This document shows, one piece after another, positions 7,287 to 38,535 of a DNA stretch of 48,506 nucleotides. The position numbers and the translations under genes were made by a program. Each line of letters opens with the position of its first letter. Position 1 is the first letter of the stretch. The stretch comes from a virus, in IMG/VR virus record IMGVR_UViG_3300021091_000126, positions 1 through 48,506 of that record. The stretch is one strand, 5' to 3'. The notes beneath the pieces are model-generated. The model had not been told where the DNA came from. It ran no database searches and saw only the letters and a program-made list of their open reading frames with translations.

Positions 7287-10190
7287 ATGGCAGCAGGAAC
7301 TTACACTCCAACACAAGCAGGAGAAGGACCATCGATGCTTAGCATTGCTAAGTCGATAGGAACTAAGATTCGTGATGCCGCAGAGCAAGCAAAAGAAGAG
7401 AGAGAAAAGGCTGATAAAGAAGGTGTGCAGGTAGAGAAAGGATCTCTATTCAAATCATCTCTAAAAAATCAATTTAACCCAGTCAAATCTAAAAAAGCAA
7501 AAAGTAATTGGTCCAAACAATTCTCGTGGAATCAAAAGAAAACTGATTCTCCAATCGCATCCGCCGCAGCAGCAGAATCTCAAGCAAAATCAACGCCAGA
7601 AAAATTAAAGAATTTTATTGCAGGTGGGTTTTCTGCTATCATGCAAGACACCACTATGATGGTGCAGAAATTATCGTCATTGAATTCTTTAACTAGTGAA
7701 AATGTAGCCTCTGCTTCTAGAGCATCAGATACATTAACAGTAATTAAGGAGACATTATCGACACAGACAGAATTAAAAAGAAAATCTATTGAAGATGCGA
7801 AGTATGCTAGGACTGAAAAAAATATTGATAAGACGCAAGATGTTGCAGATGTAATTAAAAAGAAAAAATCTTCTTCTAGTAAATCAGATTCTTCTGGTGA
7901 TGGTGGAGGTGAAGAAGGTGGCGGTGGAATGTTTGATTGGTTGTGGAAAAGTTTGGAAATTATTGATGTATTAGATGACATTAATGATTTGAGAAAAGGT
8001 AGAAATCCTTTCAGTAGATTTAGGATGCCTGGCACGATGCCTGGCACTGGTCCTAGGGTTACTACGAGTGGTGGAGCTCCTGCTCCAGCAGCAAAGCAAC
8101 CATGGTGGAAAAAGATGTTACCTTTCGCAGATGATGCTGCAAAAGGTGGCACTAAAGCAGGAGCAAAGGGTGCTGGTGGATTACTTGGTAGATTACTTCC
8201 AGGAGCACAAACTGCGTTAGGTATTGGATTAGCAGCAAAATCTTTTAGTGAGGGTGATGCTGTTGGTGGTGCGTTGAATCTTGGTAGTGCATTGCCTGGT
8301 CCATTCGGGTGGGCATTCTTGGCAGCTAGTCTAGGAAGAGATATTTTTGCTCCAGGACTAGGCAACAAAGAATTAGGACAAGCATTCAGTACTCCAGGTT
8401 TAACACCAGAGCAAACATCAGGTATGTCTGGACTTGAGAGGGGGATGCTAGACATTTCTACTCCATCATTCACTGGATTTTCTGAAGGTGGCATAGTCCC
8501 ATCAGCAGTGCCACCATCTCCTGTTTCTTCAATGGCATCAGGTGGTATAGTAGATAATCCCACTAAAACAATTTTAAATCCTGGTGATGCGGTGTTACCT
8601 CTCGATAGTAACCCTGCTAAAAATATTTTTGGTAAACAAAAATCAGCTGATAGTGAAGAAGCCATGGCAATTCCTTTCAAAGGAGCTGCAGCTGCCTTCT
8701 TAGGTATTACTAGCAGAATGCTTGGCAAGACTGATTCTGGAATTGCTGGTCAAATAGTAGCACAGGATATTTCTAGACTTTCTAGACAATTTGGTTTTAC
8801 AAATGTATTGACAAGCACATCATTAGGAAAGGCATCGTATACAAAATCAGATACTGAAAAAGAAAGCAGAAACTTCTTAAAAGATTTATTTTCTGGTCTT
8901 AATTTATTTGGCGAAGACGAAGAAGATAAAGGTAATGGCGGAAGTCCATCTCCAACGGGTGCTACGGTAAGTGGTGGGTCTGCACCAGGGGAAGGACAAT
9001 TCACGATGACTTCTGGGTTTGGTAGTAGACCTTCTCCTGGTGGCGTTGGGTCAACAAATCACCTGGGAATAGATTATAATGCACCACAAGGCACACCAAT
9101 TGCTGTGTTAAAACCAGGCAAAGTTGCTAAAGTAGAACCAGTTATTGATGCTAAAACAATGTCATCCGTTAGAATTATACACGATGATAATACTGAAACT
9201 AGATATGCACACCTCAGTAGAATAGATGTCCAAGAAGGACAACAGGTTGGGGCAAATCAATTGATTGGTCTTTCTGGTGGAGATCCAAATACTCCAGGAG
9301 CAGGCCCTTCGACTGGACCTCATGTGCATTTTGAATATTATGCTGGTCCTAGTGCTGGACCTAGCGATGGATCTGGGGTAGCAAAACAATACTTTACTTT
9401 AGGTGGGACTGTAGTTGGTGCCCCCGCAGCACAACCAATGTCTAATGCTAAGGGAGGTAACGTTGCTGTGCTTTCTCTAGGCACTAATGATTGGGGTGTT
9501 GACTCCAGTATTCCGCAAAGAAACACACAAAGAATTGTTAAGTTTGTAAAAGATAGAGGTTATAATCCAGTTGTTATACCACCATTCAATGAAGGTAAAT
9601 TCAAAAAACCAAGACAGGGGGTTGAGAAGGGAGCGAGATTGGCTGGAGCACCTATTGTAAACATGAGTGGAAAACCAGTAGATCAATATGGACATAATAG
9701 CAAGAAAGATAGACAAAGACTTGGTAGAATGTTTAAAGGAGCATTGCTGATAGGTGATAGCAATGCTCAGGGTATTAAATATTATACTCCCAAAAGTAGA
9801 TTGATTGGTGGAGTTGGTAAAGATACTGATAGTATTTGGGCTGATGTCAGAAATTCTGGATTGAAACCACTTGTTAAACCTTCAAGTCCAGCATCTTCTC
9901 CAGCTGCCTCATCACCTTCTAGTGGCCAATCAACATCTCAAGCACCACAAAGGCCAGCAGCAACATCAAGACCATCATCTTCTACTGCTACTAGAGCAAG
10001 ATCACAGCAACCTCAAACAACAACTGTGGTAAATAGTGGTGCGTCTGGTGGAGGAGCAAATACTTTTGTTGTTTCTGCACCAGAAAGAACACCAAATGCT
10101 ACGGCAGTTACTCCTTTCGGAGCTTCAGTCCCAGCAGGACCAACAACAGCATATACATTTGCTGATTTCTTATACCCAGACTTAGTATAA
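7287..10190 (+). CDS. Tape-measure-like virion protein with M23 peptidase and permuted SGNH-like domain
   Basis: The protein has 967 residues. It begins GTYTPTQAGEGPSMLSIAKS, matching an internal module of the preceding protein, and shares a second motif with it (IDVLDDINDLRKGRN) plus SGGIV-type tape-measure motifs near residues 400-450. Residues about 568-690 are an M23 (LytM-like) zinc endopeptidase with HLGID (H592, D596) and HVHFE (H679, H681). Residues about 722-850 carry SGNH hydrolase blocks in rotated order: LSLGTND (732-735), DQYGH (799-803), then LLIGDSNAQG (S825). A Pro/Ser-rich linker and a Thr/Ala-rich tail follow. It likely rides in the tail and attacks the cell wall during DNA entry; the SGNH-like part could deacetylate or de-esterify wall glycans (inference). 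Confidence 0.8.
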   Translation: MAAGTYTPTQAGEGPSMLSIAKSIGTKIRDAAEQAKEEREKADKEGVQVEKGSLFKSSLKNQFNPVKSKKAKSNWSKQFSWNQKKTDSPIASAAAAESQAKSTPEKLKNFIAGGFSAIMQDTTMMVQKLSSLNSLTSENVASASRASDTLTVIKETLSTQTELKRKSIEDAKYARTEKNIDKTQDVADVIKKKKSSSSKSDSSGDGGGEEGGGGMFDWLWKSLEIIDVLDDINDLRKGRNPFSRFRMPGTMPGTGPRVTTSGGAPAPAAKQPWWKKMLPFADDAAKGGTKAGAKGAGGLLGRLLPGAQTALGIGLAAKSFSEGDAVGGALNLGSALPGPFGWAFLAASLGRDIFAPGLGNKELGQAFSTPGLTPEQTSGMSGLERGMLDISTPSFTGFSEGGIVPSAVPPSPVSSMASGGIVDNPTKTILNPGDAVLPLDSNPAKNIFGKQKSADSEEAMAIPFKGAAAAFLGITSRMLGKTDSGIAGQIVAQDISRLSRQFGFTNVLTSTSLGKASYTKSDTEKESRNFLKDLFSGLNLFGEDEEDKGNGGSPSPTGATVSGGSAPGEGQFTMTSGFGSRPSPGGVGSTNHLGIDYNAPQGTPIAVLKPGKVAKVEPVIDAKTMSSVRIIHDDNTETRYAHLSRIDVQEGQQVGANQLIGLSGGDPNTPGAGPSTGPHVHFEYYAGPSAGPSDGSGVAKQYFTLGGTVVGAPAAQPMSNAKGGNVAVLSLGTNDWGVDSSIPQRNTQRIVKFVKDRGYNPVVIPPFNEGKFKKPRQGVEKGARLAGAPIVNMSGKPVDQYGHNSKKDRQRLGRMFKGALLIGDSNAQGIKYYTPKSRLIGGVGKDTDSIWADVRNSGLKPLVKPSSPASSPAASSPSSGQSTSQAPQRPAATSRPSSSTATRARSQQPQTTTVVNSGASGGGANTFVVSAPERTPNATAVTPFGASVPAGPTTAYTFADFLYPDLV

Positions 10191-10192
10191 CC

Positions 10193-11605
10193 ATGGCAGA
10201 CACAGCAAGACAGTATACTTTAGAAGGAGTCAGTATTACTAGTGTCTCCAATAAGTCTTACAACATCACTGATTTGGTGATGGAATTTTCTATATTTGAA
10301 AGCATTAACAATCCTTATATACTAGGGTCTATCATCTTAAATGATAGTGGACAAAATATTTTGGCTAGTATGCCAATTCAAGGAAGAGAAAGAGTATCAA
10401 TCAGAGTGAAGACAGAAACATTTTCTGACAAAACATATAACTATGATTTAGTAGTGTCTGGCATTGACACACGTACAGTATCAAATAGAAATCAAATTTA
10501 TAAATTAAATCTCATCAGTTATACTGGTATGCAAAATGAAGGCATACGAATTGGAAAGGTTTTGGAAGGAACTAATGACAAAATTGTTGAAAAAATTCTC
10601 AAAGAGTTTTTGAAAGTGGATAAGAAAATTGATACTGAATCTGCTAAATTTCCACAAAAATATTTGCCTAGTTTGAAGAGACCTTTTGATTTTATATATC
10701 AGTTAGCACCAGTAACAGTTTCTGCATCCACGCCAACTGGTGCTAGTGGTGGTGCCAGTGGTAAAGGAAGCGGTGCTAGTGGAGTCACTCAATCTGATAT
10801 TAAATCAGACAATAAATCTAAACTAAGTGGCAGTGCTGGGTATTTATTTTATGAAACTTATGATGCTTTCGTATTTAAATCATTAGATAAGATTGCTTCA
10901 ACTGGTGAAGGAGATAATTATGGGGGAGAGAAACCAAAGTATACTTATACCTATGCTTATGCTAACGATGGAAAAACTGATAGTCAAAACCATTTAAAAA
11001 TTATTGATTATACTTTTGTGAATGAAATTGATGTGCTGAAGCAATTAAGAGAAGGAATTTATTCTACTATGTGTATTTTCTTTGACGTGAATACTGCTTC
11101 ATATGAGGAAACAATTTTTAAAGTAGAAGATACTTATAAGCAAATGTCTCACCTGGGATCAGCTGAGAAAATACCACAAGGACAGAAAGAATTATCTGAG
11201 TATCCGACACGTATCATGACACAGATGATTAACAATGAGTTATTTCATAAGGATAAAAACACACCAGGAAAAGATAATTCTGCTTTTAAAGATACCTACA
11301 AATATTCTATAGCACAATCAAATGCTAGATATCGATTAGCTTCAAATCAACAGATAAATATTACGATACCTCCAAACATCACAATAAGAGCTGGAGATAA
11401 GTTGGAATTATTATTCCCTAATATGACATCTGAAGAAATAAGAAAGACACAACCATATGATGAAGAACATAGCGGATATTATTTAATTAAAAATATTGGG
11501 TATAACTTTGTGGTAAAAGGAGCGCAATCTTTAACTGGAACTACTAATGTCAGTTTGATTAGAGATTCATTCGGAAGAAAAAACACCGCAAGTAAGGTAA
11601 AGTAA
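10193..11605 (+). CDS. 27: Baseplate hub protein, gp27-like
   Basis: The protein has 470 residues (T4 gp27 is 391). The N-terminus, with NITDLVMEFSIFESINNPY and ILNDSGQNILASMPIQG then RERVSIRVKTE, is the typical start of hub proteins whose two tube-like domains bridge the six-fold tube and three-fold spike. A Gly/Ser-rich insertion (SGGASGKGSGASG, about 183-197) interrupts the middle. C-terminal ITIPPNITIRAGDKLELLFP and SGYYLIKNI are also typical of hub proteins. It follows the peptidase gene by 2 bp and precedes the gp5-like gene, consistent with a gp27-gp5 complex. Confidence 0.8.
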   Translation: MADTARQYTLEGVSITSVSNKSYNITDLVMEFSIFESINNPYILGSIILNDSGQNILASMPIQGRERVSIRVKTETFSDKTYNYDLVVSGIDTRTVSNRNQIYKLNLISYTGMQNEGIRIGKVLEGTNDKIVEKILKEFLKVDKKIDTESAKFPQKYLPSLKRPFDFIYQLAPVTVSASTPTGASGGASGKGSGASGVTQSDIKSDNKSKLSGSAGYLFYETYDAFVFKSLDKIASTGEGDNYGGEKPKYTYTYAYANDGKTDSQNHLKIIDYTFVNEIDVLKQLREGIYSTMCIFFDVNTASYEETIFKVEDTYKQMSHLGSAEKIPQGQKELSEYPTRIMTQMINNELFHKDKNTPGKDNSAFKDTYKYSIAQSNARYRLASNQQINITIPPNITIRAGDKLELLFPNMTSEEIRKTQPYDEEHSGYYLIKNIGYNFVVKGAQSLTGTTNVSLIRDSFGRKNTASKVK

Positions 11606-11821: not shown

Positions 11822-14788
11822 ATGGCATTTGATAGTTACTCTACTTCCACTAATTTCGTCGGTAAAGATGGATTTCACTGGTGGGTAGGACAAGTAGAGA
11901 AGGGAGACAATAATGATAAACTTTCTAACCGTTATAAGGTTAGAATTGTTGGACACCATTTACAGTCTTGTGAAGCACAGAAGACTGATGATTTGCCATG
12001 GGCAAATACAGTTGCTCCCACAACAGATCCTTTTAGTAATGCTGCTAGCACCACCACCAAATTATATCCAGGTGACTGGGTAATTGGATTTTATATGGAT
12101 GCTGCTATGGCACAGCAACCATATATTTTAGGATCTATTGGCACCATCGCTAATGCTGAGTCGCCAAGCAAACTACCATATAAAACATTCACTTCACCTA
12201 ATCCAGAGGGTTGTAGAGCATTCACTAATTTTGCTCCTGACAGAGTAGCGCCTTCCCCTTATATTGGCACATCATACAATAAGAAAGCAGTTGAAAATGT
12301 AAAGAAAGGATACGTCCCTACAGCACAGAAACCTCCAGGTTCGGGTAAGCAAGATGGTGGATTGGGCGACCCAGCTTCTATACAGTATGGTCCTGGTTGT
12401 TTAGGAAGTCCACTAAACCCTGCGGGACAAACATGCACCATCATTTCGCAAGCACAATGTCCTAGTGGAAAGACGGCATCTAAATTAGAAATTATTTTAT
12501 CCGAGTTATTTAAAATAATTTCTCAGTCTGGTGGCGGTGTTGGTAGTATGCTGACCAGTAAAATAACTGGTTACGCATCCGATGCGAAGAGTTTTGTTTT
12601 TGGATACATCAACAAAGCAATCGCTGTTATTATGCAAGGATATGGGTGGTTGAAGGGAGAATTATATAACCTATTGAAGCAGGGAGTGCAGTTTTTAATT
12701 CAATCTTTGCTTAGTCTCATATCAGATAAAGCAAAGCCAAAGGATTCTAAACCACCATATGACCCAAAGAAACCAAGAAAACTCTTAGATAAAATACAGA
12801 AGTTTCTTACAGATCAACTAGCAAAGATTGGTTGCAGTATCGAAGATTTGTATGACCGTATTCTTAACTTCTTAACAAATTTAATCTTTGGATATGTAGA
12901 TAAAATTTGGTCTGATGCTTTCTGTGCTATTGATGCACTAGTATCAAACATCATGAATCAACTGCAGAAGTTTTTGAGTGATGCAGTCAGTGCTATCATG
13001 GGACCATTGCAAAGTATATTAGGTGCCATTGCCGCACCATTAGATGCTATTGGAAAATCTATCGGTGCGGTGATGGAATTTCTTGGCATCTCCTGTAGTG
13101 GTTTACCGAAAGAGTGTAAGAAAATCATCAAGGATTGTGGTGAAGGTCCAAAGCCATCTAAAGGAAGAAAAGATGATGCTCTCGATAGACTTCTAGCAGA
13201 CATTGCGAGGACTACTAAACCTTCACCCAACGTTGGAGTTTGTAAAGAAGCAACAGAAATTGCTACACCTCCATTAGATGTTGTTATAACTGGTGGCATA
13301 CCAAAACCAACTACACCTTCAGGAGGCACAACTCCAACGGGAGGGACAGATGGACCGATTGATGGTATCACAACCACTGCTACTTTAAGTATATTGTTGG
13401 ACCCAGAAACTGTCACAAAAAATATTGGCGAAAGTCATACCTTCACTGTAATTGCTTCTACTTCTAATGGAAGTCCAATCAGTTATCAGTGGCAAAAGTA
13501 TGATGCTAATGTGCCATCAGGAAACTCTACTCTATGGGAAAACATACCTGCTGCAACTAGTAGTAGTTATACTGTTTCTTCCATAACCTTAGAAGATGAT
13601 ACTGATTCATATCGTTGTATAGTAAGATCTACCGATACAATTCCTCTATCAGTAGAGTCAGATTCTGCTGACATTTTAGTTAATCCAGATTCAGTCACAC
13701 CAACATCACCTCCCAATAATTATTTCTACGATATTATTATCAATCTAGATTTCAATTCTTCCATTAATAACTCTACATTTGATGCATCAAATGGAAATTC
13801 TAGATTCTTTTATTCTAATACATCACTAACACCAAACACATCATCTTTTAATATAACTGGAACAGCTGAAGCTTCATATGAGTCTTCTTCTAGTGCTATT
13901 GAGCAATTAAATCAAACATATAGACTAGTAGCTAATCCTAATTTAGTTTCTCCTGGTCAAAGCGTTACTTTTATTTTAAATACTACTAACGTTCCTAACG
14001 GCACCAAACTAGAATATTATATTTTTAGTCCAAACTTATTGTTAACAGATATTGTGGGAGAATCTTTGGTTGGTACCTTTACAGTGTCAAACAACAGAGC
14101 AAGGTCTATTGTGAGAATAGCGGATGAAGTCAGTTTCTCCCAAAAAGAATTAGTTTTTGCTGCATTGAGAAATGGATATGCAGCAACTCAATTTGTTATC
14201 GAAGGCACTGAAAAGGAATTATCGCCCCCACTACCACCAGAAGAACCAAGACCACCAATTGCTTGTGATCCTATTGTATCTAATACAGGACAGATAATAG
14301 ATATACCAATTTGCGATAATGGCACTCCATTTTTAGACCCGCCTTCTATTTTTATTCAGTCCGATGGTTTTGGATTTGGAGCTTCTGCTGTTGCGGAGTT
14401 GGATGATGATGGTTTTGTTAGTAGAATTAAGGTGTTGCGTCCAGGTAGAGGATACCCACCAAACCCACCTGAAAATTTAGATTGTATTATTAGTGGATTC
14501 ACTATGATTAAGGGTGGTTTTGGTTATGATACTGAGCCATTAGTTTATATTAATGATGAGTTGGATATCGCTGAAGCAGTTATACGAAATGGTATTGTGG
14601 TAAATATTATCGTGAAGGATAAAACAAAAACATATGAGGATATTCCCAGCGTAAAAATTGTTGCCACAACAACTGGTCTAGGAGCAATTGCAATACCAAA
14701 TATTGCTTGTCTAGATAAGAAAGAAGTCAGAGAAATCGCAGAGGTTGTTGGTCCAACACCTGTTGGTGAGTATATCGATTGTCCGTAG
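11822..14788 (+). CDS. 5: gp5-like central hub protein with OB-fold, helical insert and Ig-like domain
   Basis: The protein has 988 residues. Residues 1-115 form an OB-fold like the N-terminus of T4 gp5 and VgrG-type spikes (FHWWVGQVE, NRYKVRIVGHH, LPWANTVAP, PGDWVIGFYMD, QPYILGSIG). There is no sign of the T4 lysozyme domain. Residues about 216-440 are a long, largely hydrophobic helical region. Residues about 522-625 are an Ig-like domain (YQWQKYD, SYRCIVR). The end has beta repeats of the GFGFGASAVAEL / GFGYDTEPLVYI type. The beta-helix needle is encoded in the next gene, so the gp5 functions look split. RBS and spacing are operon-like (2 bp after the previous stop). Confidence 0.8.
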   Translation: MAFDSYSTSTNFVGKDGFHWWVGQVEKGDNNDKLSNRYKVRIVGHHLQSCEAQKTDDLPWANTVAPTTDPFSNAASTTTKLYPGDWVIGFYMDAAMAQQPYILGSIGTIANAESPSKLPYKTFTSPNPEGCRAFTNFAPDRVAPSPYIGTSYNKKAVENVKKGYVPTAQKPPGSGKQDGGLGDPASIQYGPGCLGSPLNPAGQTCTIISQAQCPSGKTASKLEIILSELFKIISQSGGGVGSMLTSKITGYASDAKSFVFGYINKAIAVIMQGYGWLKGELYNLLKQGVQFLIQSLLSLISDKAKPKDSKPPYDPKKPRKLLDKIQKFLTDQLAKIGCSIEDLYDRILNFLTNLIFGYVDKIWSDAFCAIDALVSNIMNQLQKFLSDAVSAIMGPLQSILGAIAAPLDAIGKSIGAVMEFLGISCSGLPKECKKIIKDCGEGPKPSKGRKDDALDRLLADIARTTKPSPNVGVCKEATEIATPPLDVVITGGIPKPTTPSGGTTPTGGTDGPIDGITTTATLSILLDPETVTKNIGESHTFTVIASTSNGSPISYQWQKYDANVPSGNSTLWENIPAATSSSYTVSSITLEDDTDSYRCIVRSTDTIPLSVESDSADILVNPDSVTPTSPPNNYFYDIIINLDFNSSINNSTFDASNGNSRFFYSNTSLTPNTSSFNITGTAEASYESSSSAIEQLNQTYRLVANPNLVSPGQSVTFILNTTNVPNGTKLEYYIFSPNLLLTDIVGESLVGTFTVSNNRARSIVRIADEVSFSQKELVFAALRNGYAATQFVIEGTEKELSPPLPPEEPRPPIACDPIVSNTGQIIDIPICDNGTPFLDPPSIFIQSDGFGFGASAVAELDDDGFVSRIKVLRPGRGYPPNPPENLDCIISGFTMIKGGFGYDTEPLVYINDELDIAEAVIRNGIVVNIIVKDKTKTYEDIPSVKIVATTTGLGAIAIPNIACLDKKEVREIAEVVGPTPVGEYIDCP

Positions 14789-17824: not shown

Positions 17825-20800
17825 ATGCCATTAACCAAACTAGAGAATTTAATTTCCAGCAAAACTGGAAGATATCTATATGTTTCACCTGACGACTTTA
17901 ACGCTTCTGACGCTTTAGACAATAGAGGCAACTCCCCAACCCGTCCTTTCCTCACAATTCAGAGAGCATTCCTTGAAGTTGCTCGATATTCGTATGTTCC
18001 TGGTAAGGAGAATGATCGCTTTGATCAATTTACGATCATGCTATCTCCTGGTAATCACTATATTGATAACCGCCCAGGTATCATGAATCCAGAGGAGATT
18101 GTTCCTTTTGCATTCAATCAAGCTACTGACGAGTGGGAAGATGAATCCATCGTTGATCTTGGCAATCCTAATAACATTCTCTATAAGTTTAACGGTCCTA
18201 AAGGTGGTGCTACTATTCCTAGAGGCACCTCACTCGTTGGTATGGACCTTCGTAGAACTCGTCTACATCCTCTTTATGTACCAGATCCTGCTGATAAAGA
18301 TGTCGGTCGCACAACTCTTTTCAACGTAACTGGTGGATGCTATTTCTGGCAGTTTACTATTCTTGATGGTGATGTTGAGAAAAATTCACCTCTTTATGAT
18401 GTGCAAGAGGGAATTGGTAAAGTATATTCACAACCAAACTCCACTATCACCACTATTCCATATTATTCTCACCACAAAATTTGCAACTTTGAATTTGCAA
18501 GTAGAGAAGATTTGGGACTACTTTACAGAAAGATTGCTAAGGCATTCTCTCTGTTTCAACCAACTATTGATGATCCAGGTGAATTTGAGCAAAGACCTCA
18601 GGAAAACAGAATTGTTGGTCCTCTCCAGGATGCTATTCGTATCGATTCTATCGAAGTCAATAATGTCCCTGGCACTACAGCTCTCGATGTTACTGTCAAA
18701 ACAAAAACAAATCATGGTTACTATGTAGGACAAGCAATTGCCGTAGCAAATCTACGCTCAACACTTCCAGCTGGAGCAACCGAAACAATTCCTCTAGCAA
18801 ATGACCCCCTAACTGGTGTTTTTGCTGTAAGAGAAATCAGTATTTCTGATTCAAAAGAATTTACATATCGTGTAGAAGGAAAGAATGCTGCTGCCGTAGG
18901 TCTTGGTGATAGAATCGGTCAACCAATTACGCCACCTACGCTCGATACAAACGCCATTACGCAGGCAGAAGTTGATTCTGTGGAATCTGCCTCGCCATAC
19001 GTTTTCAACGTCTCTATCCGCTCTACGTGGGGTATCTGCGGCATTCACGCTGATGGTAGCAAGGCCAGTGGTTTCAAATCGATGGTTATCGCCCAGTATA
19101 CGGGTGTATCGCTACAGAGAGATGATCGTGCGTTTATTCGTTATGATGAATTTAGTAATACCTGGAATCAGGCACCTCTCACTGATGCGTTTGCTACAAC
19201 TCCCTATCACACTAAAGGTGATGCATATTGGAAGGATGATTGGAGAAACTTCCACGTTAAGGCATCGAATGACGCATTCATCCAAAACGTTTCTATCTTC
19301 GCTGTAGGTTTTGCTGACCACTTCCTCATGGAGTCTGGTGGTGACATGTCGATCACCAACTCAAACTCAAACTTTGGTAATACTTCGCTACATGCTATCG
19401 GTTACAAAGGTTATTCCTTTGCTCAAGACCAAGGCGGATATATTTCGCACATCGTTCCACCTAGAAAAGTAACTACTACAACTAAGAAGTATCAGTATTT
19501 TACTTTCAATCAAATCAAAACTAGAAATTCTAATGCTTTAGATAATAGTGGTCCATCTAATCTCGTTAGATTGTATTTGGCAAATGATGAATCTTCTGAT
19601 CCATTACAGAAACCAGCTACTACAGTTAACGGCTTTAGATTGGGCGCAAGAGCACATGAGAAAATCTATGTTAAACTAGACCCTGCTACTGGTTTTACTG
19701 GGTCGATTCGTCAAGCGGAAATCTCTCCATCTGGTTACAGAAAGTGGGATGTAGCTCTTTCTATCTTAAGTCCTAATATTGTGACTGGAGTTTCAAATAA
19801 TGACCAGGATGCGGCAAATCTTCTAGATTTAAATAGAGATTTCATTGCGGCAGAGACTTATGGATACATTACTAGAAAGTTCCCATATCTGCTAACAAGA
19901 GAAATCAGCATCAATAAGTGTAGGAGAGATGTTGGTTATATTCTTGAAGCAGTTGCAAACGATTTACGTGTTGGTGGCAATGTCAACAGCATTCAAGCAG
20001 CACAAGCATACTACACTGGCAATCAACTAGATTACATTGAGACAGAAAAAGAAGAGACCTTAGATGCATTTAACTATGCTAGAAGTCTTGCTGTTGCGGC
20101 AATGCGTAATTGGGAATTCCGAATTCAAAATTGCAGCACATTTAGTGGACAATCTACGGTAAGTGTACCAAATGGCATTACCACAATTGGTATTGTTGAA
20201 GGAATGGTAGTTACTGCTACACCAGCAACTGGTCAAACTAATCCAATTCCCGCAGGTACATATGTAGCAGAGATAGTTAGCACCACTCAATTTAAACTCG
20301 GTAATAGAAATGATACTGAGCTAGTAAATGCTTTAGCGACCATTGTTGCATCTGGTCCAACATCAGGTGGTATCACTTTAAACTTCAGTCTAAATCAAGG
20401 TAAGTTTGCATCATCTTCTGGTAGAGCATTCGATGCAGGTACTTTAATTAAGTTAAATAAAGAATTTATTGCTGAGGAAGCTCTCAATTTAGCAAAACTA
20501 CAGTATCCTGCTGTAACTGTACCAAGCAGTGATACTTGCAAGCGTGATATTAAGTTTGTCTTGGATGCACTAGTAGAAGACCTTGCTTCTACTGGTAACT
20601 CTGGAATGGTTACTGCTGCGGAGAAGTATGTTGGTGCTTCAAGTCGCTACTTCGATGCTAAAGATTTAATTCTTGCAAATAGAAGAGAAATTATTGATAA
20701 AGCATCTGCAAAACTTGCTATCGATTATCCAGATTTTTATTATGGTGGAAGTGGATTTACTAATGGTGGTGATGATAGAACTAATGTATATTCTAGATAC

Positions 20801-23800
20801 AAAGATTCTTACAGACTAATTCAGCAAAATAGAGCTGAAATTATTAATAATGCATATAATGCTCTAATTCTTAATGGTCTTCCAAATCCTCAACCAGATG
20901 ATTTAGAGAATAAGTGTAAGCGTGATATTGGTCATTTTGTAGATGCTATTTCTACAGATTTAACTACACTCGGGAATTCATACTCTATTGATTTCATTCG
21001 TCAATATTTCTTAGAAGATAAGGTAAATGGCAAGATTCTTACGTTTACTAGAAATAATGGCACTACTCTTGCTAGCAAACCAAATAGAGTTTATACTGGT
21101 GTAGCAACTACCACAACTAGTGATGGTGTGGGTGCCACATTTACAGTAACTAGAAATTCTTCTGGTGCAATTAGTGCTGTAACAATCGTAAATGGTGGAT
21201 ATAAGTATGCCTCTGGAAACACACTTAGAATTTTAGGATCTACAATTGGTGGTGTCAACGTAGCAGATGATATTGTAATCACTGTTTCTACAGCAGAGCA
21301 AGCCTGGATTCAAAACGGTCTCCAGGGAGAAGAGACACAATCAATCTTTGCATATAATGCAGCGATTGCCGAAATGAAGAAGGCAATCACCAACCAGTTA
21401 ACAGTTAAAGATCTTGGAATCACTGGAGACCCACTACCAGGATCTACACAATCTGGTGTTAGTGACTTTGGCACTCCTGGTGTTACAGATAACAACACTG
21501 ATTCTCAGTCTTGCACTAATGTGCAGCAGACGATTGATACTCTATCACAGTTAATCTTTGCTAGAATTCGTCAGGGAGATTTAGTAACTGCTACTCAGCA
21601 AAATCCAGCACTTCCTCAAATTAACTATGGTAGCGCACCTGAATTCCAAGCTAAGTGTAAGCGCGATATTGGTTACATTGTAGATGCTATCGCAGAAGAT
21701 CTAGCTTTAGGTGGAAACTCTAACATTATTAGAGCAACCAAATCCTATTTTGATAGCACTGGCAACACTCTAATTAATAATGGACTAGCAGGAGAAATTC
21801 CACAATCTATTACTGCTTTTACTGCGGCTAGAGATCTCTGTTTCAAAGCGGTTACTAATCAACTGAATGTAAGAGATTTTGAAATCTCTGAAGGACCAGC
21901 ACAACTAGGAGTAGTCGGTCCTGATATTCCAAATAATAATCCAAACTCTTGCTTGGATGTGAGAAACACTATTGATAGTTTGTTTGGTATTATCATTCAA
22001 AAATTAAACAATAGTGCATTTATTTTACCACCTCTTAGCTATAATGGTGGGGCTATCTCACTAGAGGGTGAGTTAGATATGAGTGTTTATGCTTACAAGA
22101 AAGCAAGAGATCTTGCTATTCTTGCAATGCGTAATTGGAAGACAGGTGATGGCACCTTTTCTGATCCTTCATATCAGAAGCTTCCAAACACCGTCCTGCT
22201 TCCTCAAACAGATTTAAGCATTGACACGACCACTGCTGGGGTGCCAGTCTGTGCAGATGTTGCTTATACTATAAGCACAGAATTTGATATTCTAATTGGT
22301 GCTTTGACGAATACTGCTCCTCTGCCACCAAAAACATATGGCACAGATGAGTATACTGAGAGAACTAAACCAGAAAAAGATATTAGCATTACTGTAGATA
22401 ATTCTAGCAACAAGTGTGCATCAACAAAAGATGCTATTGTTGAAAAAATGCGTGTAATCGAGAGTGTTATTCGCAATGGAATTGATGCAGAGCCACTTGT
22501 ATCGCAATTAGTTAATACTGCATCCTTTGCACAAAGAGCAACTATTTTCCGTGTTGCTGGTAACAATCCACACAATCTAGAAACTGGCACTCCAGTGAAA
22601 CTAGTCCCAGTCGCTAAGAAAGATCCATTCACTGGACAACCAGTGAATATGGATAAGCGTTTAATTAGATTACCGAAAGGTTTTGATAGTAATACTAAGT
22701 ATTATGTGATTGCTCCTGGTAAAATTACTTCGCCATTTGATTACTCTGCAGGTGGAGCAACATCACAGTTTAATGATTCGCAAACTTTCATGCTTGCCAC
22801 AAGCGTTGAAAATGCTGCTGCTGGTAACTACATTTATTCATCTGAGACTAATTCTATTGACCCAGATGTGCAGATTGAAGTCCATCAGTATATGACGGAC
22901 GTAGATTATAACCTACATCGCTATACCTGCTCTCTTGTAAGTTCGAGAGTATTCCAAACAACAACTAACCACATTTTTGATACTGCTATTAGTGGAGTTC
23001 AAGTGCAGCAAGTATTCTTCTATCCTCTGGAAGAAAATCTTGTTAATGGAGCTCCAACTGGCACTGCACTTGAGACATTACCATCTAAGACAAATGGCAA
23101 TAGATTGGAAATTAATAGAACTTATTTTGTTGGACGCCCAGCTACTTATACCTCTAACAATCAGTTTTCTATCTATCTAACCGTACAGGATGCTATTAAC
23201 AAGCAAAATGCGGTGCAGTTCAACTATCCAAGCGGTCAGTCATTCTATGTATTAGCTACTAAAAAGAGAAGTCCTCTAGGATATGACCCAGTGCAGAATG
23301 GTTGGTTCTTGAAGACTTTACTTCAGGGTAATGAAATTTATGATAGACTTACTTTATCTGATGCTTCAAGAGGAAGTCTATATGTAAATAAACCACCCCG
23401 CACTCCAGATTCTTTCTTCTATAGAGCAGATGATACCAGAAAGAAAGAGGATAAGGTTTACAAACTACGCTATGTAATTCCTAATTATAGAGACGATGTA
23501 AGAGATCCTCTCAGTGGATTTGTAATTAAGATTAGAACTGACGAAAAGAGAAAACTAGTCCCACAAAGAATTCTTCTCAAGCCAGTTTCTGCAAATGACC
23601 AGAAAGATGCAACTTTCTTTGAAGAAGGTCCATCTCCAAGAGAGCGTCTAGGTATTGCTGGTGCTAGCACACAGTATGACCCTTACAATCCCATTTTTGC
23701 CAAGAGAATTGCAGGCACCAATACTGAATCAAATGTATCATTTACGATTCAATCTGCTAAGATTGTAAATAATTACCTAGAAATGGTTGTATTTGACCAT

Positions 23801-26800
23801 GGAATTGACGTAGAATCTCTCAAGGCAGAAAGATTTGTTACTGTAAAAGTAGGACAACCTCAGGGTGGTAACGGCGAATTTATTCCTGGCACTAGAATTA
23901 CTTGGTATGGTGAGTATCAAGGAAGCGCAATTGTGCATTCTTGGTTTGGTTCTGAGCCAGTCGAAGGTGGATTGGAAGAGTTTAATTATCTAATTCTTCG
24001 TGCAGTTGAAGGACAGATTGACTTTGACGAGAAGACACAAACATTCTTCCGTCAGAGAATTGATGGACAACCAGATGTTACTGCTGAATTGCTTTCGAGA
24101 CCAAACTTCGGTAAAGAAGATAAATCAGAATATCTTTATGCTGTAGAAGCTTCTAATGTTTATACAGTAACTCCTGGTGATGTAATTACTGACGATGCTG
24201 CTAGACAATATAGAGTTGTTAGTGTGGAAGATGTTGATGATTTAAGTGAAACATACTATATTTACGATATTGAAGAAGTTCAGAGAAGAATTCCTAGACA
24301 GCAAGATGGTGTTTACTACTTAACTTGTGTAAGAGGTGATATTTCTCCATATCCTACTGGATCTGGAGTTGGTATCAACTTCAGAAACTTTAAGTTTAGT
24401 CAGCCAGTTTCTAGACTATATCCATTAACATACAAAAACGATCCACTACTATTCCAGTATGATGGTAGCGATGGACAAGGTGGAAGTCAGAATACTAACA
24501 TAGTTGACCCACCAGCATCTGTTTGTGCTGCTGACAACTATATTCATGGTTTAGTTACTATCAACGATGCCAAAAATTCTATTACCAAAGAAGCAGTTAT
24601 TGATTTTATTAAGAATCCTGGTTCTGGTCAATATGAGTTTACTGGCGTAAATCAACTAAAAGCACTTTCTGGAGCTGCATCTTCTGGTGCCGAAGAAAGA
24701 TTAATTCCTATTGCAGGTGATTCTTCATTCCCACTAGAGCAAAAACTTTATGTTGAATTGCGTAGACCATCGATTGCTCGTGCAGGTAACCACACGTTTG
24801 AATATCTAGGTTTCGGTCCTGGTAACTACTCAACTGGTTTCCCTGCTAGACAGACTGTTATCCTCAGTGCGGTAGAAGACTACTATGCACAATCTAAGAG
24901 ACAAGATGCTGGTATCGTATTCTATACTGGTATTAACTCTAATGGCGAATTGTATATCGGTAATCGTAAGATTAATGCTATTACTGGCGAGGAAGAATTC
25001 TTAGATGCTCTAATTCTCGATGAGGAAAAAGCAGAAGATGGGCAGTTTGGAAGTCTCGTTACGGTATTTGAAGATCCCGTAACATTTGAAAATATCATTA
25101 CATTAAATGCTCCTCCAAATCTAACAAACTTCTTCAATTCCCCAATTGTGGTCAATGTTGACCCAGAATTTGAAGCAATAATGACGCCTCCTTCTATCAG
25201 GATTGTTTCCCGTCCTGGTGATAGACAGGCATTACTTCCAGGTGATGATGATCCTCTACTTGATACTACAAGAGCTGGCGATATTATTCTCGACAAGAAT
25301 AGAGCAAGAGCAGCTATCTTTGACATGAATCCTAGAGGCACTCAAAGATATACTTTCAGAACCTCAGTAACTAATATAACACCAAATCAGTTCACAACTG
25401 GTCCTAAGACGCGATTTAATTCTTCACAAACTTTATCCTTTGGGTCTACTGTTCCTCTTTCTGGTGATGTCCTATTCAAGGGTGGTGAAGTTGGTTATTC
25501 TGGATCTTTAGGTTGGGTTTATGCAAACTCTTATCTGCCTTACAGATTGAATGCTCCTGCAGGTCAGGAATCTTCGATTGATATCATCGGTATTCAATTC
25601 TATCCAAATCTCAACGTCATTAAGTTAATTTTCCAAGTAGGAAAAGTTAACTTTAGCTCTTCAAATCCTGGTGCATCTTTAGGAATTACTAGGTCATCTC
25701 AAATTAAGATTACTGGTGGCATTGATAGATTCACAACTATCAATGGTGTCCACACAGTATATGATAATTCTTCGGAAGGATATGAGTATTCTGAATCTAA
25801 TGGATATGTTTATCTCTTAACAACTAGAGCATCTGAAACTACATTAACAGGTAATCCACCATATGTTTATGCTACTTCGATTATAACACAACCAACTCTG
25901 GAAATCGCAATTTCTCAGTCTCAGTGGAAAGAAGTTGGAGTTATTGGATCTGAGTCTATTCGCACAGAAACCGAAACTTACGGTGATTATAAAGTAGGTA
26001 TTAATACCCTAGCTAGAGCATTATCTACTGATTATGTTGTTTCTTACATTACCTCACAAACTACACCAAGAGCAAACTTGGATGTAGTTGGTAATGCATT
26101 TATAAGTGGCAGAAAGCAAACTAATTTCTCTGATTTACAAGGAGGAGTTCCTCTTACAACTAGACATGCCTTCATTGTCGGTGGTGACAGTGCAAATCCA
26201 GATTCTACTGCTGAATTTAGAATTGCAACTAGCACTTTATCTGAAGCTGGTCGTGTAGTAGGACCAACCGCCGATAGTGACAATGGTAGAGTAGGTATTA
26301 ATGTTTCAGATGCTGCACTTGATAGAAACTTTGTTGTTTCTGGTGATGCAAGAATAACTGGAGACTTTACATTCCAGTCTGATATTGATGTAAATGGTGG
26401 TGATATTCGCTCTACTGCTCCTACATTCAATATTGCTAATCAAAACACGACGACTTCTCTTGTATTAAGTGGATTTGCACAAAACATTGCTATTGGTAAT
26501 TCAACAACTACCACACAAAATATTGATATTGGAACTTCCGTAACAGGATCTACTACCCTTGATATTCACACCAACAGCAATAATTCGATTATTAATGTTG
26601 GAACTGTAAATAATACAGCAACATCAAATGTATCACAAATTACAATTGGTGGTGCATATGCAAATAGAGGTCAAAGCACTCTACAAGTTAAAAATTATAG
26701 AACAATTCTAGATGGTACATTAACTATCAATGGCGGTGAAATCAATACTACATCATTAAGTCAAGAATTTACATTATTCCCAACTGGTGTTACTACACTA

Positions 26801-29194
26801 AACATTGGTTTGAGTGTTGGAACACTTACATTAGGTGGTGTCGCTGGCACGACTAGAATTAGAAATGGTTTGAATGTATTGGGATCTTCATTCTTTGAAT
26901 CTGACATTACCCAAAATGGTGGATTGAAAAATAATAATTTGGGTATTGATAGAAATATCTTTGGTTTACTTAGAATTTCTACAGTTTCTAGATCTTCTAA
27001 TACCGCTACTATCGTAACATCAACTCCACATAATTTAGCCACTGGTGCTCTAGTAAAAGTTGTTTGCTCCATACCAAGTTTCAGCACTATTTCTACAGTT
27101 TCAATTACTGTGGTTGATGCAACTACATTTACATATGCAAATGTATCTCCATCTATTATTACAACTCCTGCTACTGGATCTATAATCACTACAAGTGGTC
27201 AAACCCAATCAACTGGTGATTTGGATAATTTGAATATTGATTACTTTGCAGTAATTCCTAATTTTGATGGTATTGTCAATCTACAAACAGTAGTGGCAAA
27301 TAAAATTATTGTAACTTCCTCGCATTGGTTTAGTGAAAATGATGCCGTTAAATTTATTGATGTTGGTAATTTAACGGGACTTTCTACATCAACAACATAT
27401 TATATTTTAAGTAGAGATGCAGTTGGTTTTACGTTAAAAGATTCATCCGATAATCCAGTAGTTGTATCTTTACAAACAGGATTTACTGATGCTGGAACTG
27501 CTAGAGTTCAATTGCAATCTATTGTTATTGATACTCAAGGTGATACTCCATGGGGAGATGATACTTTCAAAACAAGAGTTGTTGATGGTAATCAATATTG
27601 GTCTCTACCACTAAGCAATCCAACTGGAATTGGTATTAATCAATTGTATCTGATTGGAGTGGAAATTGTAAGGACAGTTGGATTCCCAACACCTTATGTT
27701 CCGAATAGTCCAGTTCCATACACAGTTGAAGTTGAGAGAGGACAAAGAGGAACAGCACAAGTTTCTCATCCAGATGGAGAAAGAATTTATAGATTAGTGG
27801 AGCAACAAAATGCTTCATATATCACACCAAGTCCTCTCAGTGGTACTGACACCGCTCTTAATCTCGCAGAATTCTCTGCAAATGTAACAGTTAATGATTT
27901 ACTAAGACTCAATAAGCAAAGTTTAAATGTTGGTGGTGAATATGTAAGAGTAAATCAAGTAAATCCAGCTGCCGCTCAAAGTTTCACTATCAATGATGGT
28001 AACATTGGCACTACTGCAATACCGAGAGAAGCTCAGAGAGTATTCAGAACTATTTCTACTACTGGAGACACACAGATTATTGGTGATGTTGTTATTGGTT
28101 ATGATGTAAATCAACCAAGTCTTGATGTTGAAAATACCCAAAGAGTTGCTGATGATAAAGGATATCCTTCTAGCACTTCAACTGGAAATACTTTTGAAAC
28201 TTCTGGTGGTGGTAACTTAAAAGTACATAACTCCATTGAATTGAGTGGAAATTCTACTACCACAACTCCTGGTAAACAGTATTTTGTTATTACTAATGGA
28301 AGTATTCCTAAATTCTATGTCGAATCTGCTACAGGAAACACATCTATTTACAATGGCGGAAATATTAAAATATTTAAAGACGGATTCTTTACGTCAGGAT
28401 CTTTTGATAAATCTAGAGCAGACAGTGCAAATAATTTAGCTTTTGAGGTATTGGGCGCAAGCGGAAATACTAAGATTGCAGGCACTCTTAGAGTTGGTGA
28501 TGATTTTACAGTTGGCACACTAGCGAATTCTTCTATAACAGAAGATGGATCTAATATCTTTACCTCTCGCTTCTCGGTTGATGCTCAAACTGGATCCACA
28601 GTAATCGGAAGACCTCTGATAAGTGTAAATACAGGTGCTACCCTTACTTTACATGGCACTTATACCAATAGTGCTTCTGCATCTTCTAATGTGTTGTCGA
28701 TTAATAATTTGGGTGACAACGCAGAAAAACCATTTAGAATTAGACAAGATGCTTCTATAGAAGCTTTCGGTCATGAGAATTTCTACAATAAGAATGGTGG
28801 AAGAAAGACTATCTTCATTTCTACTCAAGGAAATACAGATTCTACTGCTATTAATTTGGAAGCTAATCTACAATACTTAGTAAGACCATCATCAACTTTA
28901 GTATTGAAGTTGCCTGCAAATGCCGTGACTGGTGATACTGTTAGAATTGTTGATGTTGGGGGAGCATTGAATTTTGCGGTTAACTTAGTAATTAGAGTAC
29001 AATCTGGATCTAACACCAGAATACAAGGTAGTAGTCAAGGTAGCAGCCTTGGTGGTGCTAGCAATTTCAATGGCGGTGAATTGGTTGTCAATACACCAAA
29101 CGCAGCATTTGGTTTAATTTATGTTGGTGATACCGATTCTAACGGTAATGGAATTGCTGCAGAGCAACAAGGTTGGTATTTGATGGAGATTTAA
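17825..29194 (+). CDS. Giant virion structural protein (tail fibre/baseplate-associated)
   Basis: The protein has 3789 residues, the largest in the window, behind a perfect late promoter and a CTGAGGAAC ribosome site. The N-terminus (GRYLYVSPDDFNAS, RPFLTIQRAFLEVARYS, FDQFTIMLSPGNHYIDN) resembles the start of very long structural proteins of T4-like cyanophages and looks like a pectate-lyase-type beta-helix. Residues about 698-1530 contain four CKRDIGY-VDAI-DL helical modules alternating with C-x2-V-x3-TI modules. Residues after 2700 are beta-rich with NVGTVNN/IGIS-type repeats as in trimeric fibres. The C-terminus (GLIYVG, GWYLMEI) looks like a fibre tip. Three collar-domain adhesins follow. 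I infer a long fibre or fibre-attachment scaffold; no enzymatic motif was seen. Confidence 0.8.
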   Translation: MPLTKLENLISSKTGRYLYVSPDDFNASDALDNRGNSPTRPFLTIQRAFLEVARYSYVPGKENDRFDQFTIMLSPGNHYIDNRPGIMNPEEIVPFAFNQATDEWEDESIVDLGNPNNILYKFNGPKGGATIPRGTSLVGMDLRRTRLHPLYVPDPADKDVGRTTLFNVTGGCYFWQFTILDGDVEKNSPLYDVQEGIGKVYSQPNSTITTIPYYSHHKICNFEFASREDLGLLYRKIAKAFSLFQPTIDDPGEFEQRPQENRIVGPLQDAIRIDSIEVNNVPGTTALDVTVKTKTNHGYYVGQAIAVANLRSTLPAGATETIPLANDPLTGVFAVREISISDSKEFTYRVEGKNAAAVGLGDRIGQPITPPTLDTNAITQAEVDSVESASPYVFNVSIRSTWGICGIHADGSKASGFKSMVIAQYTGVSLQRDDRAFIRYDEFSNTWNQAPLTDAFATTPYHTKGDAYWKDDWRNFHVKASNDAFIQNVSIFAVGFADHFLMESGGDMSITNSNSNFGNTSLHAIGYKGYSFAQDQGGYISHIVPPRKVTTTTKKYQYFTFNQIKTRNSNALDNSGPSNLVRLYLANDESSDPLQKPATTVNGFRLGARAHEKIYVKLDPATGFTGSIRQAEISPSGYRKWDVALSILSPNIVTGVSNNDQDAANLLDLNRDFIAAETYGYITRKFPYLLTREISINKCRRDVGYILEAVANDLRVGGNVNSIQAAQAYYTGNQLDYIETEKEETLDAFNYARSLAVAAMRNWEFRIQNCSTFSGQSTVSVPNGITTIGIVEGMVVTATPATGQTNPIPAGTYVAEIVSTTQFKLGNRNDTELVNALATIVASGPTSGGITLNFSLNQGKFASSSGRAFDAGTLIKLNKEFIAEEALNLAKLQYPAVTVPSSDTCKRDIKFVLDALVEDLASTGNSGMVTAAEKYVGASSRYFDAKDLILANRREIIDKASAKLAIDYPDFYYGGSGFTNGGDDRTNVYSRYKDSYRLIQQNRAEIINNAYNALILNGLPNPQPDDLENKCKRDIGHFVDAISTDLTTLGNSYSIDFIRQYFLEDKVNGKILTFTRNNGTTLASKPNRVYTGVATTTTSDGVGATFTVTRNSSGAISAVTIVNGGYKYASGNTLRILGSTIGGVNVADDIVITVSTAEQAWIQNGLQGEETQSIFAYNAAIAEMKKAITNQLTVKDLGITGDPLPGSTQSGVSDFGTPGVTDNNTDSQSCTNVQQTIDTLSQLIFARIRQGDLVTATQQNPALPQINYGSAPEFQAKCKRDIGYIVDAIAEDLALGGNSNIIRATKSYFDSTGNTLINNGLAGEIPQSITAFTAARDLCFKAVTNQLNVRDFEISEGPAQLGVVGPDIPNNNPNSCLDVRNTIDSLFGIIIQKLNNSAFILPPLSYNGGAISLEGELDMSVYAYKKARDLAILAMRNWKTGDGTFSDPSYQKLPNTVLLPQTDLSIDTTTAGVPVCADVAYTISTEFDILIGALTNTAPLPPKTYGTDEYTERTKPEKDISITVDNSSNKCASTKDAIVEKMRVIESVIRNGIDAEPLVSQLVNTASFAQRATIFRVAGNNPHNLETGTPVKLVPVAKKDPFTGQPVNMDKRLIRLPKGFDSNTKYYVIAPGKITSPFDYSAGGATSQFNDSQTFMLATSVENAAAGNYIYSSETNSIDPDVQIEVHQYMTDVDYNLHRYTCSLVSSRVFQTTTNHIFDTAISGVQVQQVFFYPLEENLVNGAPTGTALETLPSKTNGNRLEINRTYFVGRPATYTSNNQFSIYLTVQDAINKQNAVQFNYPSGQSFYVLATKKRSPLGYDPVQNGWFLKTLLQGNEIYDRLTLSDASRGSLYVNKPPRTPDSFFYRADDTRKKEDKVYKLRYVIPNYRDDVRDPLSGFVIKIRTDEKRKLVPQRILLKPVSANDQKDATFFEEGPSPRERLGIAGASTQYDPYNPIFAKRIAGTNTESNVSFTIQSAKIVNNYLEMVVFDHGIDVESLKAERFVTVKVGQPQGGNGEFIPGTRITWYGEYQGSAIVHSWFGSEPVEGGLEEFNYLILRAVEGQIDFDEKTQTFFRQRIDGQPDVTAELLSRPNFGKEDKSEYLYAVEASNVYTVTPGDVITDDAARQYRVVSVEDVDDLSETYYIYDIEEVQRRIPRQQDGVYYLTCVRGDISPYPTGSGVGINFRNFKFSQPVSRLYPLTYKNDPLLFQYDGSDGQGGSQNTNIVDPPASVCAADNYIHGLVTINDAKNSITKEAVIDFIKNPGSGQYEFTGVNQLKALSGAASSGAEERLIPIAGDSSFPLEQKLYVELRRPSIARAGNHTFEYLGFGPGNYSTGFPARQTVILSAVEDYYAQSKRQDAGIVFYTGINSNGELYIGNRKINAITGEEEFLDALILDEEKAEDGQFGSLVTVFEDPVTFENIITLNAPPNLTNFFNSPIVVNVDPEFEAIMTPPSIRIVSRPGDRQALLPGDDDPLLDTTRAGDIILDKNRARAAIFDMNPRGTQRYTFRTSVTNITPNQFTTGPKTRFNSSQTLSFGSTVPLSGDVLFKGGEVGYSGSLGWVYANSYLPYRLNAPAGQESSIDIIGIQFYPNLNVIKLIFQVGKVNFSSSNPGASLGITRSSQIKITGGIDRFTTINGVHTVYDNSSEGYEYSESNGYVYLLTTRASETTLTGNPPYVYATSIITQPTLEIAISQSQWKEVGVIGSESIRTETETYGDYKVGINTLARALSTDYVVSYITSQTTPRANLDVVGNAFISGRKQTNFSDLQGGVPLTTRHAFIVGGDSANPDSTAEFRIATSTLSEAGRVVGPTADSDNGRVGINVSDAALDRNFVVSGDARITGDFTFQSDIDVNGGDIRSTAPTFNIANQNTTTSLVLSGFAQNIAIGNSTTTTQNIDIGTSVTGSTTLDIHTNSNNSIINVGTVNNTATSNVSQITIGGAYANRGQSTLQVKNYRTILDGTLTINGGEINTTSLSQEFTLFPTGVTTLNIGLSVGTLTLGGVAGTTRIRNGLNVLGSSFFESDITQNGGLKNNNLGIDRNIFGLLRISTVSRSSNTATIVTSTPHNLATGALVKVVCSIPSFSTISTVSITVVDATTFTYANVSPSIITTPATGSIITTSGQTQSTGDLDNLNIDYFAVIPNFDGIVNLQTVVANKIIVTSSHWFSENDAVKFIDVGNLTGLSTSTTYYILSRDAVGFTLKDSSDNPVVVSLQTGFTDAGTARVQLQSIVIDTQGDTPWGDDTFKTRVVDGNQYWSLPLSNPTGIGINQLYLIGVEIVRTVGFPTPYVPNSPVPYTVEVERGQRGTAQVSHPDGERIYRLVEQQNASYITPSPLSGTDTALNLAEFSANVTVNDLLRLNKQSLNVGGEYVRVNQVNPAAAQSFTINDGNIGTTAIPREAQRVFRTISTTGDTQIIGDVVIGYDVNQPSLDVENTQRVADDKGYPSSTSTGNTFETSGGGNLKVHNSIELSGNSTTTTPGKQYFVITNGSIPKFYVESATGNTSIYNGGNIKIFKDGFFTSGSFDKSRADSANNLAFEVLGASGNTKIAGTLRVGDDFTVGTLANSSITEDGSNIFTSRFSVDAQTGSTVIGRPLISVNTGATLTLHGTYTNSASASSNVLSINNLGDNAEKPFRIRQDASIEAFGHENFYNKNGGRKTIFISTQGNTDSTAINLEANLQYLVRPSSTLVLKLPANAVTGDTVRIVDVGGALNFAVNLVIRVQSGSNTRIQGSSQGSSLGGASNFNGGELVVNTPNAAFGLIYVGDTDSNGNGIAAEQQGWYLMEI
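19916..21740 (+). repeat. Four dispersed CKRDIGY-type modules in the giant protein
   Basis: Imperfect protein repeats have their Cys at residues 699 (KCRRDVGYILEAVANDLRVG), 905 (TCKRDIKFVLDALVEDL), 1031 (KCKRDIGHFVDAISTDL) and 1278 (KCKRDIGYIVDAIAEDLALG). Each is followed by G-N and a short helical, often Tyr-bearing segment. Shorter Cys modules (SCTNVQQTIDTL near 1229, SCLDVRNTIDSL near 1375, VCADVAYTI near 1475) follow or interleave. Confidence 0.75.
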
Positions 29195-38345: not shown

Positions 38346-38535
38346 AGCAGCATTATATGAAGTGCCAGTCAAAACAACCCCAGAGAATGTCAAAGAGGCA
38401 AACGAAGGGTTGTTTAACTGCACTATGACACTTCCTGCTGCCGCTAAACATTGTGGCATGACACAGAAAGAAATGAAACTGACATTCTTTGAGTATCTGA
38501 AGTATCACCCTCTCACATATAATCAAAATTCATGA
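38323..38535 (+). CDS. Small conserved early protein with helix-turn-helix-like segment
   Basis: The protein has 70 residues. TMTLPAAAKHCGMTQKEMKL followed by TFFEYLKYHP resembles a short helix-turn-helix in which a glycine sits at the turn; this pattern occurs in small cyanophage proteins. It starts inside the previous gene and ends in an ATGA overlap with the halogenase gene. DNA binding is an inference from the segment only. Confidence 0.65.
   Translation: MSLLKINKAALYEVPVKTTPENVKEANEGLFNCTMTLPAAAKHCGMTQKEMKLTFFEYLKYHPLTYNQNS

Follow-up and report, generated by a model that had tools for sequence, protein, structure and literature searches.

Canonical SGNH/GDSL proteins (PF13472, PF00657, the small phage forms and Escherichia coli TesA/TAP) have four blocks in common: block I with a GDS motif, block II with a glycine, block III with GTND and block V with a histidine, usually in the form DxxH. 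Here, we describe a phage domain whose two halves both appear homologous to the canonical ones, but whose blocks run in the order III-V-I-II. The domain is encoded by an uncultured, cyanophage-like virus, IMG/VR record IMGVR_UViG_3300021091_000126, of which positions 1 to 48,506 were analysed; this whole 48,506-base stretch is referred to as the window. Unlike the canonical forms, the permuted domain sits in large phage structural proteins, and the window copy carries DxxxH in place of DxxH.

Permutation of the SGNH active site has a precedent. AlgX, AlgJ, WssI and PatB1 (DHHW) are permuted SGNH-like O-acetyltransferases with the order H-S-G-N (PMC9487903, PMC4148444), and the acceptance of AlgX and PatB1 means that the chain order I-II-III-V is not required for SGNH membership. 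The phage domain shares with these proteins, which act on glycans, a circularly permuted SGNH active site. The cut point is different: proteins of the AlgX/DHHW family are cut between blocks III and V, carry DxH or DHHW, have a tyrosine in place of the asparagine in AlgX and AlgJ, possess cap domains and span about 300 residues, whereas the phage domain runs N-H-S-G, keeps GTND, carries DxxH or DxxxH and spans about 140 residues. We found no earlier description of an N-H-S-G permuted domain in the open-access literature on permuted SGNH/GDSL domains, including those of phages, an absence that is not proof. The phage domain would thus represent a second SGNH permutation, residing in uncultured phages and apparently independent of the AlgX/PatB1 type, the sole published one that we found.

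With respect to gene position, the closest described proteins are the M23 proteins of T4-like cyanophages (S-PM2 p210, Syn1_013, S-RIM44; PHROG 5453), which share the gene place, the M23 domain and the flanking region with the window open reading frame (ORF). Located at 7287-10190, this ORF holds the place of S-PM2 p210 (T4-like GC 727), immediately 5' of a tail protein and gp5. No SGNH part is present in seven such M23 cyanophage proteins, namely S-PM2 p210, Syn1_013, S-RIM44, S-RIM32, S-H9-2, Sf-CH3 and Sf-CH11.

An earlier reading of the window, the original prediction, had placed four SGNH motifs (LSLGTND, DQYGH, LLIGDSNAQG and GGVGKDT) in permuted order behind the M23 domain. All four are found at the predicted positions (Table 1), in the order III-V-I-II (N-H-S-G) instead of the canonical I-II-III-V, and in a single open frame C-terminal to the M23 domain. 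The proposed circular permutation is borne out by matches to SGNH Pfam families, swapped profile alignments, permuted homologues with DxxH and a confident AlphaFold model, all described below, and residues ~722-860 very likely form a real, circularly permuted SGNH-hydrolase domain. Its chain would start at the block III strand (GTND), pass block V (His803), enter the block I strand (Ser825) and end at block II (Gly), and the four blocks would still converge at the C-terminal edge of a single sheet.

Relatives were collected from IMG/VR using a DNA pattern that places GDSNA 246-276 bases downstream of GTND. The pattern matched 39 stretches, of which 36 contain the permuted domain (28 distinct) and three are chance matches. 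Because family members were selected for GTND and GDSNA, these two motifs are not independent evidence. Outside this selection, the block V histidine is present in 26 of the 27 distinct sequences analysed, and a canonical DxxH (DPLHL, DGVHL, DGYHI or DHYHI) lies between GTND and GDSNA in 15 of them. In none of the 27 does a GDS occur within 80 amino acids before GTND or a GxND within 90 amino acids after GDSNA. One sub-family carries PYAHL or PYTHL, with a longer insert where DQYGH of the window exceeds DxxH by one residue. Searching by homology alone also retrieved relatives with the same block order: L017, an IMG/VR sequence found through conserved peptides excluding the motifs, has intact GTND, YTH and GDSN, and the order is likewise retained in the cyanophages S-SSM4 and ACG-2014d. 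Since the order is shared by the 36 pattern-found stretches and by these homology-only relatives, it is not due to chance.

The same data bear on whether an assembly or reading artefact could have joined normal SGNH halves in the wrong order. We found nothing in favour of this explanation, and it is refuted by the continuous open frame, by a second contig (IMGVR_UViG_3300021376_000063) encoding an identical domain (100% identity), and by the recurrence of this order in isolate genomes and in 36 contigs drawn from many metagenomes.

Homology to canonical SGNH proteins was assessed using domain and profile comparisons. Among 25 permuted-family members, PF13472 (GDSL_2) matches 19 (best E 7.9e-8), PF19040 (SGNH) seven and PF00657 four, and the matches of these families cover the front half of the domain. 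A canonical-order comparison set was obtained using the mirror pattern (61 phage stretches, 47 distinct sequences used) and compared by hhalign to a permuted profile of 27 sequences. Columns 5-96 of the permuted profile align with columns 51-134 of the canonical profile (E 2.4e-10), and a second, non-overlapping alignment joins permuted columns 98-131 to canonical columns 7-45. Such swapped, non-overlapping half alignments are the signature of a circular permutation, and this profile-level evidence supports one here. When the halves were compared singly, the front scored 62.4 and the rear 22.3, and the best scores among 300 column shuffles each were 24.0 and 17.7. The front half also matches a bacterial TesA-type SGNH profile (hhalign, E 2.1e-8).

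Other searches returned less. Canonical mini-SGNH contigs give weak matches to a whole-domain profile, solely via positions 4-97 or 4-71. The C-terminal piece alone gave no HMMER-level match, and its best local alignment to the bacterial SGNH profile is the GDS stretch alone. NCBIfam and PHROG scans of the isolated domain were empty, and PDB searches by single sequence and by a 7-row profile returned nothing useful. The family profile A4 matches the window at 9447-9860 with E 7.1e-40, the window itself being a row of A4. The weak Pfam matching leaves the permuted domain unannotated. Many small stand-alone canonical SGNH proteins of ~135-160 amino acids (L151-L211) were seen in phage contigs, with the motif series LIIGDSIAVGT...GTNDH...DxIHPSWAGYKEL.

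The fold of the domain was predicted with AlphaFold2. Using 25 natural homologues, the model reached a predicted local distance difference test score (pLDDT) of 92.6 and a predicted template modelling (pTM) score of 0.87; with 7 sequences, pLDDT was 78.5. From N to C terminus it comprises a strand (725-730), a helix, a strand (759-764), a helix, a bridge at ~790, a helix (806-815), a strand (820-823), a helix from Ser825, a strand (838-841) and a helix. Asn734, His803, Ser825 and the Gly stretch 841-844 each follow successive strands in an SGNH-like manner. The prediction is therefore confident and its elements stand in the order anticipated for the permuted domain. Among viral models, Foldseek ranks the ACG-2014d relative first.

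Several observations weigh against an SGNH assignment or against catalysis in this phage. No whole protein tested reaches the GDSL_2 cut-off (14.4 to 17.7 bits for the window versus 32.9), and the match of the rear half, aided in part by the GDSNA-based selection, is weak (P 0.001). No SGNH structure is among the 50 best PDB matches of Foldseek, which are Rossmann-type sheets with template modelling scores of ~0.5 or less. The spacing from D799 to H803 is +4 (DxxxH) in the window copy compared to +3 in the canonical DxxH, and the domain tree places the window copy on a long, unsure branch. Finally, in the isolate copies of S-SSM4, S-SSM6b and ACG-2014d, the order III-V-I is retained whereas Ser, His and Asn have been lost.

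The structural matches, to SLOG, HAD and dehydrogenase folds, could be taken to mean that the domain belongs to an ordinary Rossmann type, such as the SLOG/DUF2493-like domains, and that its GTND and GDSN are coincidental; the somewhat DUF2493-like 'TAGSKDFADP' of ACG-2014d would agree with this. We consider it very improbable, given that domain scans yield no SLOG or DUF2493 Pfam match while three SGNH Pfam families do match, and that DPLHL/DGVHL-type canonical motifs occur where expected in 15 of the 27 sequences. The strand order of the SGNH sheet is 2-1-3-4-5. If the chain is opened between strands 2 and 3, this would become 5-4-1-2-3, which is the Rossmann order backwards. Because the permuted SGNH sheet would in this way gain a Rossmann-like strand order, Rossmann-type Foldseek matches are to be expected, though they are still no positive proof. 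A permuted SGNH family would offer a route from a flavodoxin-like to a Rossmann-like sheet, and a natural test of active-site survival under chain rewiring.

The remaining points concern catalysis rather than fold. As the loss of Ser, His and Asn from the isolate copies indicates, the fold can be maintained when catalysis is lost: the fold region is retained where S-SSM4 has GTDQ, no His and GDK, and where ACG-2014d has GSKD, no His and GDQ. By the same logic, the window copy could have kept the permuted SGNH fold but ceased to be an enzyme in this phage, acting instead in a structural or glycan-binding role, as its DxxxH and long branch might indicate. This is unlikely in our view. At an overall identity of only ~22-32% to its relatives, the window copy nevertheless retains Ser, Gly, Asn and His, and several SGNH enzymes, such as CE2 and SsEst, are active even though the Asp is displaced or a Ser-His dyad is used (PMC9487903). 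The original claim that all catalytic residues are intact holds for these four and is left uncertain for the Asp, with D799 and H803 four residues apart. There is a reasonable likelihood that the window copy of the permuted SGNH domain is catalytic.

The decayed copies lie in proteins annotated as 'endolysin' in S-SSM4, S-SSM6b and ACG-2014d (PHROG 1200 type), which contain the same permuted domain at 28% identity. They differ from the window protein in the loss of the catalytic residues, in the placement of the domain, which has membrane-like helices on one side and a lysozyme-like part on the other, and in having no M23. The decayed domain (L001:2119-4548 in S-SSM4 and L006:2122-4944 in ACG-2014d) accounts for an unannotated region in these endolysins. 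When the domain was searched by tblastn against 50,697 phage records, matches were obtained in cyanophages only (S-SSM4, S-SSM6b, ACG-2014d). An early query (A2) found no relative in 84,980 genomes of bacteria and archaea, and neither did the better profile A4 in 399 genomes from a single phylum; A4 does recover permuted domains in phage records (most of them rows of A4). Matches in a Xanthomonas phage tail tubular protein do not have the SGNH motifs in permuted order and were dismissed as chance.

The company that the domain keeps points to its function. Of the 36 proteins, 16 contain M23, nine a lysozyme-like N-terminal domain and two an amidase; other carriers are a gp5-type hub with Phage_lysozyme2 and Gp5_OB, a baseplate OB protein and a probable tape-measure protein. 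On the domain tree the M23 label has to change at least twice, and the M23-SGNH fusion may therefore have arisen more than once. As virion proteins repeatedly join the domain to wall hydrolases, a wall-directed ester hydrolase is the best guess. The domain would most likely act as a Ser/His ester hydrolase that strips ester groups (at best guess O-acetyl, carried by peptidoglycan or a different glycan of the envelope) during passage of the tail through the cell wall, aiding the neighbouring wall-cutting enzymes and DNA entry. The two wall-directed activities put forward originally, M23 and esterase, are consistent with the repeated fusion to peptidoglycan hydrolases.

O-acetyl groups on peptidoglycan are a plausible but tentative choice of substrate. 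O-acetylation is reported to protect against lysozyme (PMC5697884), from which it would follow that O-acetyl removal aids neighbouring lysozymes. An active permuted SGNH enzyme might instead hydrolyse esters of outer-membrane lipid, O-antigen or capsule, as SGNH enzymes are promiscuous and TesA/TAP is both a lysophospholipase and a thioesterase (PMC9487903). We regard this as somewhat less probable, since the recurrent partners are the peptidoglycan hydrolases M23, Amidase_5/NlpC and Phage_lysozyme2, although this evidence is indirect.

Taken as a family, the permuted domains probably represent an unrecognised group of phage enzymes: SGNH esterases cut between blocks II and III, with a Rossmann-like sheet, which in uncultured phages are recurrently fused as a wall-entry module into baseplate, tape-measure and virion lysin proteins, and which have decayed in cultured cyanophages. 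This suggests that phage entry machines bear esterases beside wall-cutting enzymes, which would be relevant to the ways in which phages deal with cell wall modification.

Individual carriers vary in architecture. A short gp5-like hub protein (L226:6045-7427) has an OB domain, the permuted SGNH domain and Phage_lysozyme2, with the esterase inserted where the gp5 lysozyme architecture is expected. In a probable tape-measure protein (L216:4799-8482), the domain lies mid-protein and is followed by a metallo-endopeptidase/lysozyme-type match. The protein at L230:50-1648 carries the domain with DHYHI and has no other Pfam match. In L242, whose copy of the domain has DxxH, the M23-SGNH gene stands within a gene run resembling that of the window, as judged by gene sizes and order alone.

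Table 1. Features of the window around the M23-SGNH protein (aa, amino acids)
Feature	Position	Strand	Evidence
ORF, 967 aa, tail/baseplate-hub-associated, M23 peptidase and permuted SGNH domain	7287..10190	+	PHROG 5453, E 1.9e-49
Peptidase M23 domain, aa 591-685	9057..9341	+	PF01551, E 5e-20, 71.9 bits vs cut-off 28.7
Circularly permuted SGNH domain (very likely), ~aa 722-860	9450..9866	+	PF13472, E 0.005 on isolated piece; A4 profile; AlphaFold2 model
Block III LSLGTND, aa 729-735 (GTND 732-735), oxyanion Asn734	9471..9491	+	Aligned with canonical SGNH block III
Block V-like DQYGH, aa 799-803, His803 and candidate Asp799	9681..9695	+	Aligned with DPLHL/DGVHL of homologues
Block I LLIGDSNAQG, aa 820-829, candidate nucleophile Ser825	9744..9773	+	Ser at helix N-terminus directly after predicted strand
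Block II GGVGKDT, aa 841-847, candidate oxyanion Gly	9807..9827	+	After last strand (aa 838-841); Gly in most family members
Upstream neighbour, 1225 aa	3585..7262	+	Partial PHROG 5453 match, E 1.1e-12; PF07486, E 0.0013, under cut-off
Downstream tail protein	10193..11605	+	phrog_350, E 5.5e-101
gp5-like baseplate hub subunit and tail lysozyme	11822..14788	+	phrog_1922, E 8.8e-149

The window contains the tail part of a T4-like phage, with tail tube, baseplate hub, two large proteins, a tail protein and the gp5-like hub/lysozyme. Synteny and PHROG matches support the assignment of the M23-SGNH protein to the tail/baseplate-hub region and agree with the phage tail setting originally proposed. 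The upstream 1225-residue protein has PHROG 5453 in common with the M23-SGNH protein, along with a weak Cell Wall Hydrolase match, and is possibly its paralogue. Further along, in the interval separating hub from tail fibre genes, a giant ORF of 3789 amino acids (17825-29194) has a lone borderline Phycobilisome match that is probably spurious. A tryptophan halogenase-like gene (38532-39719; PF04820, E 4.7e-21) is located amid tail genes.
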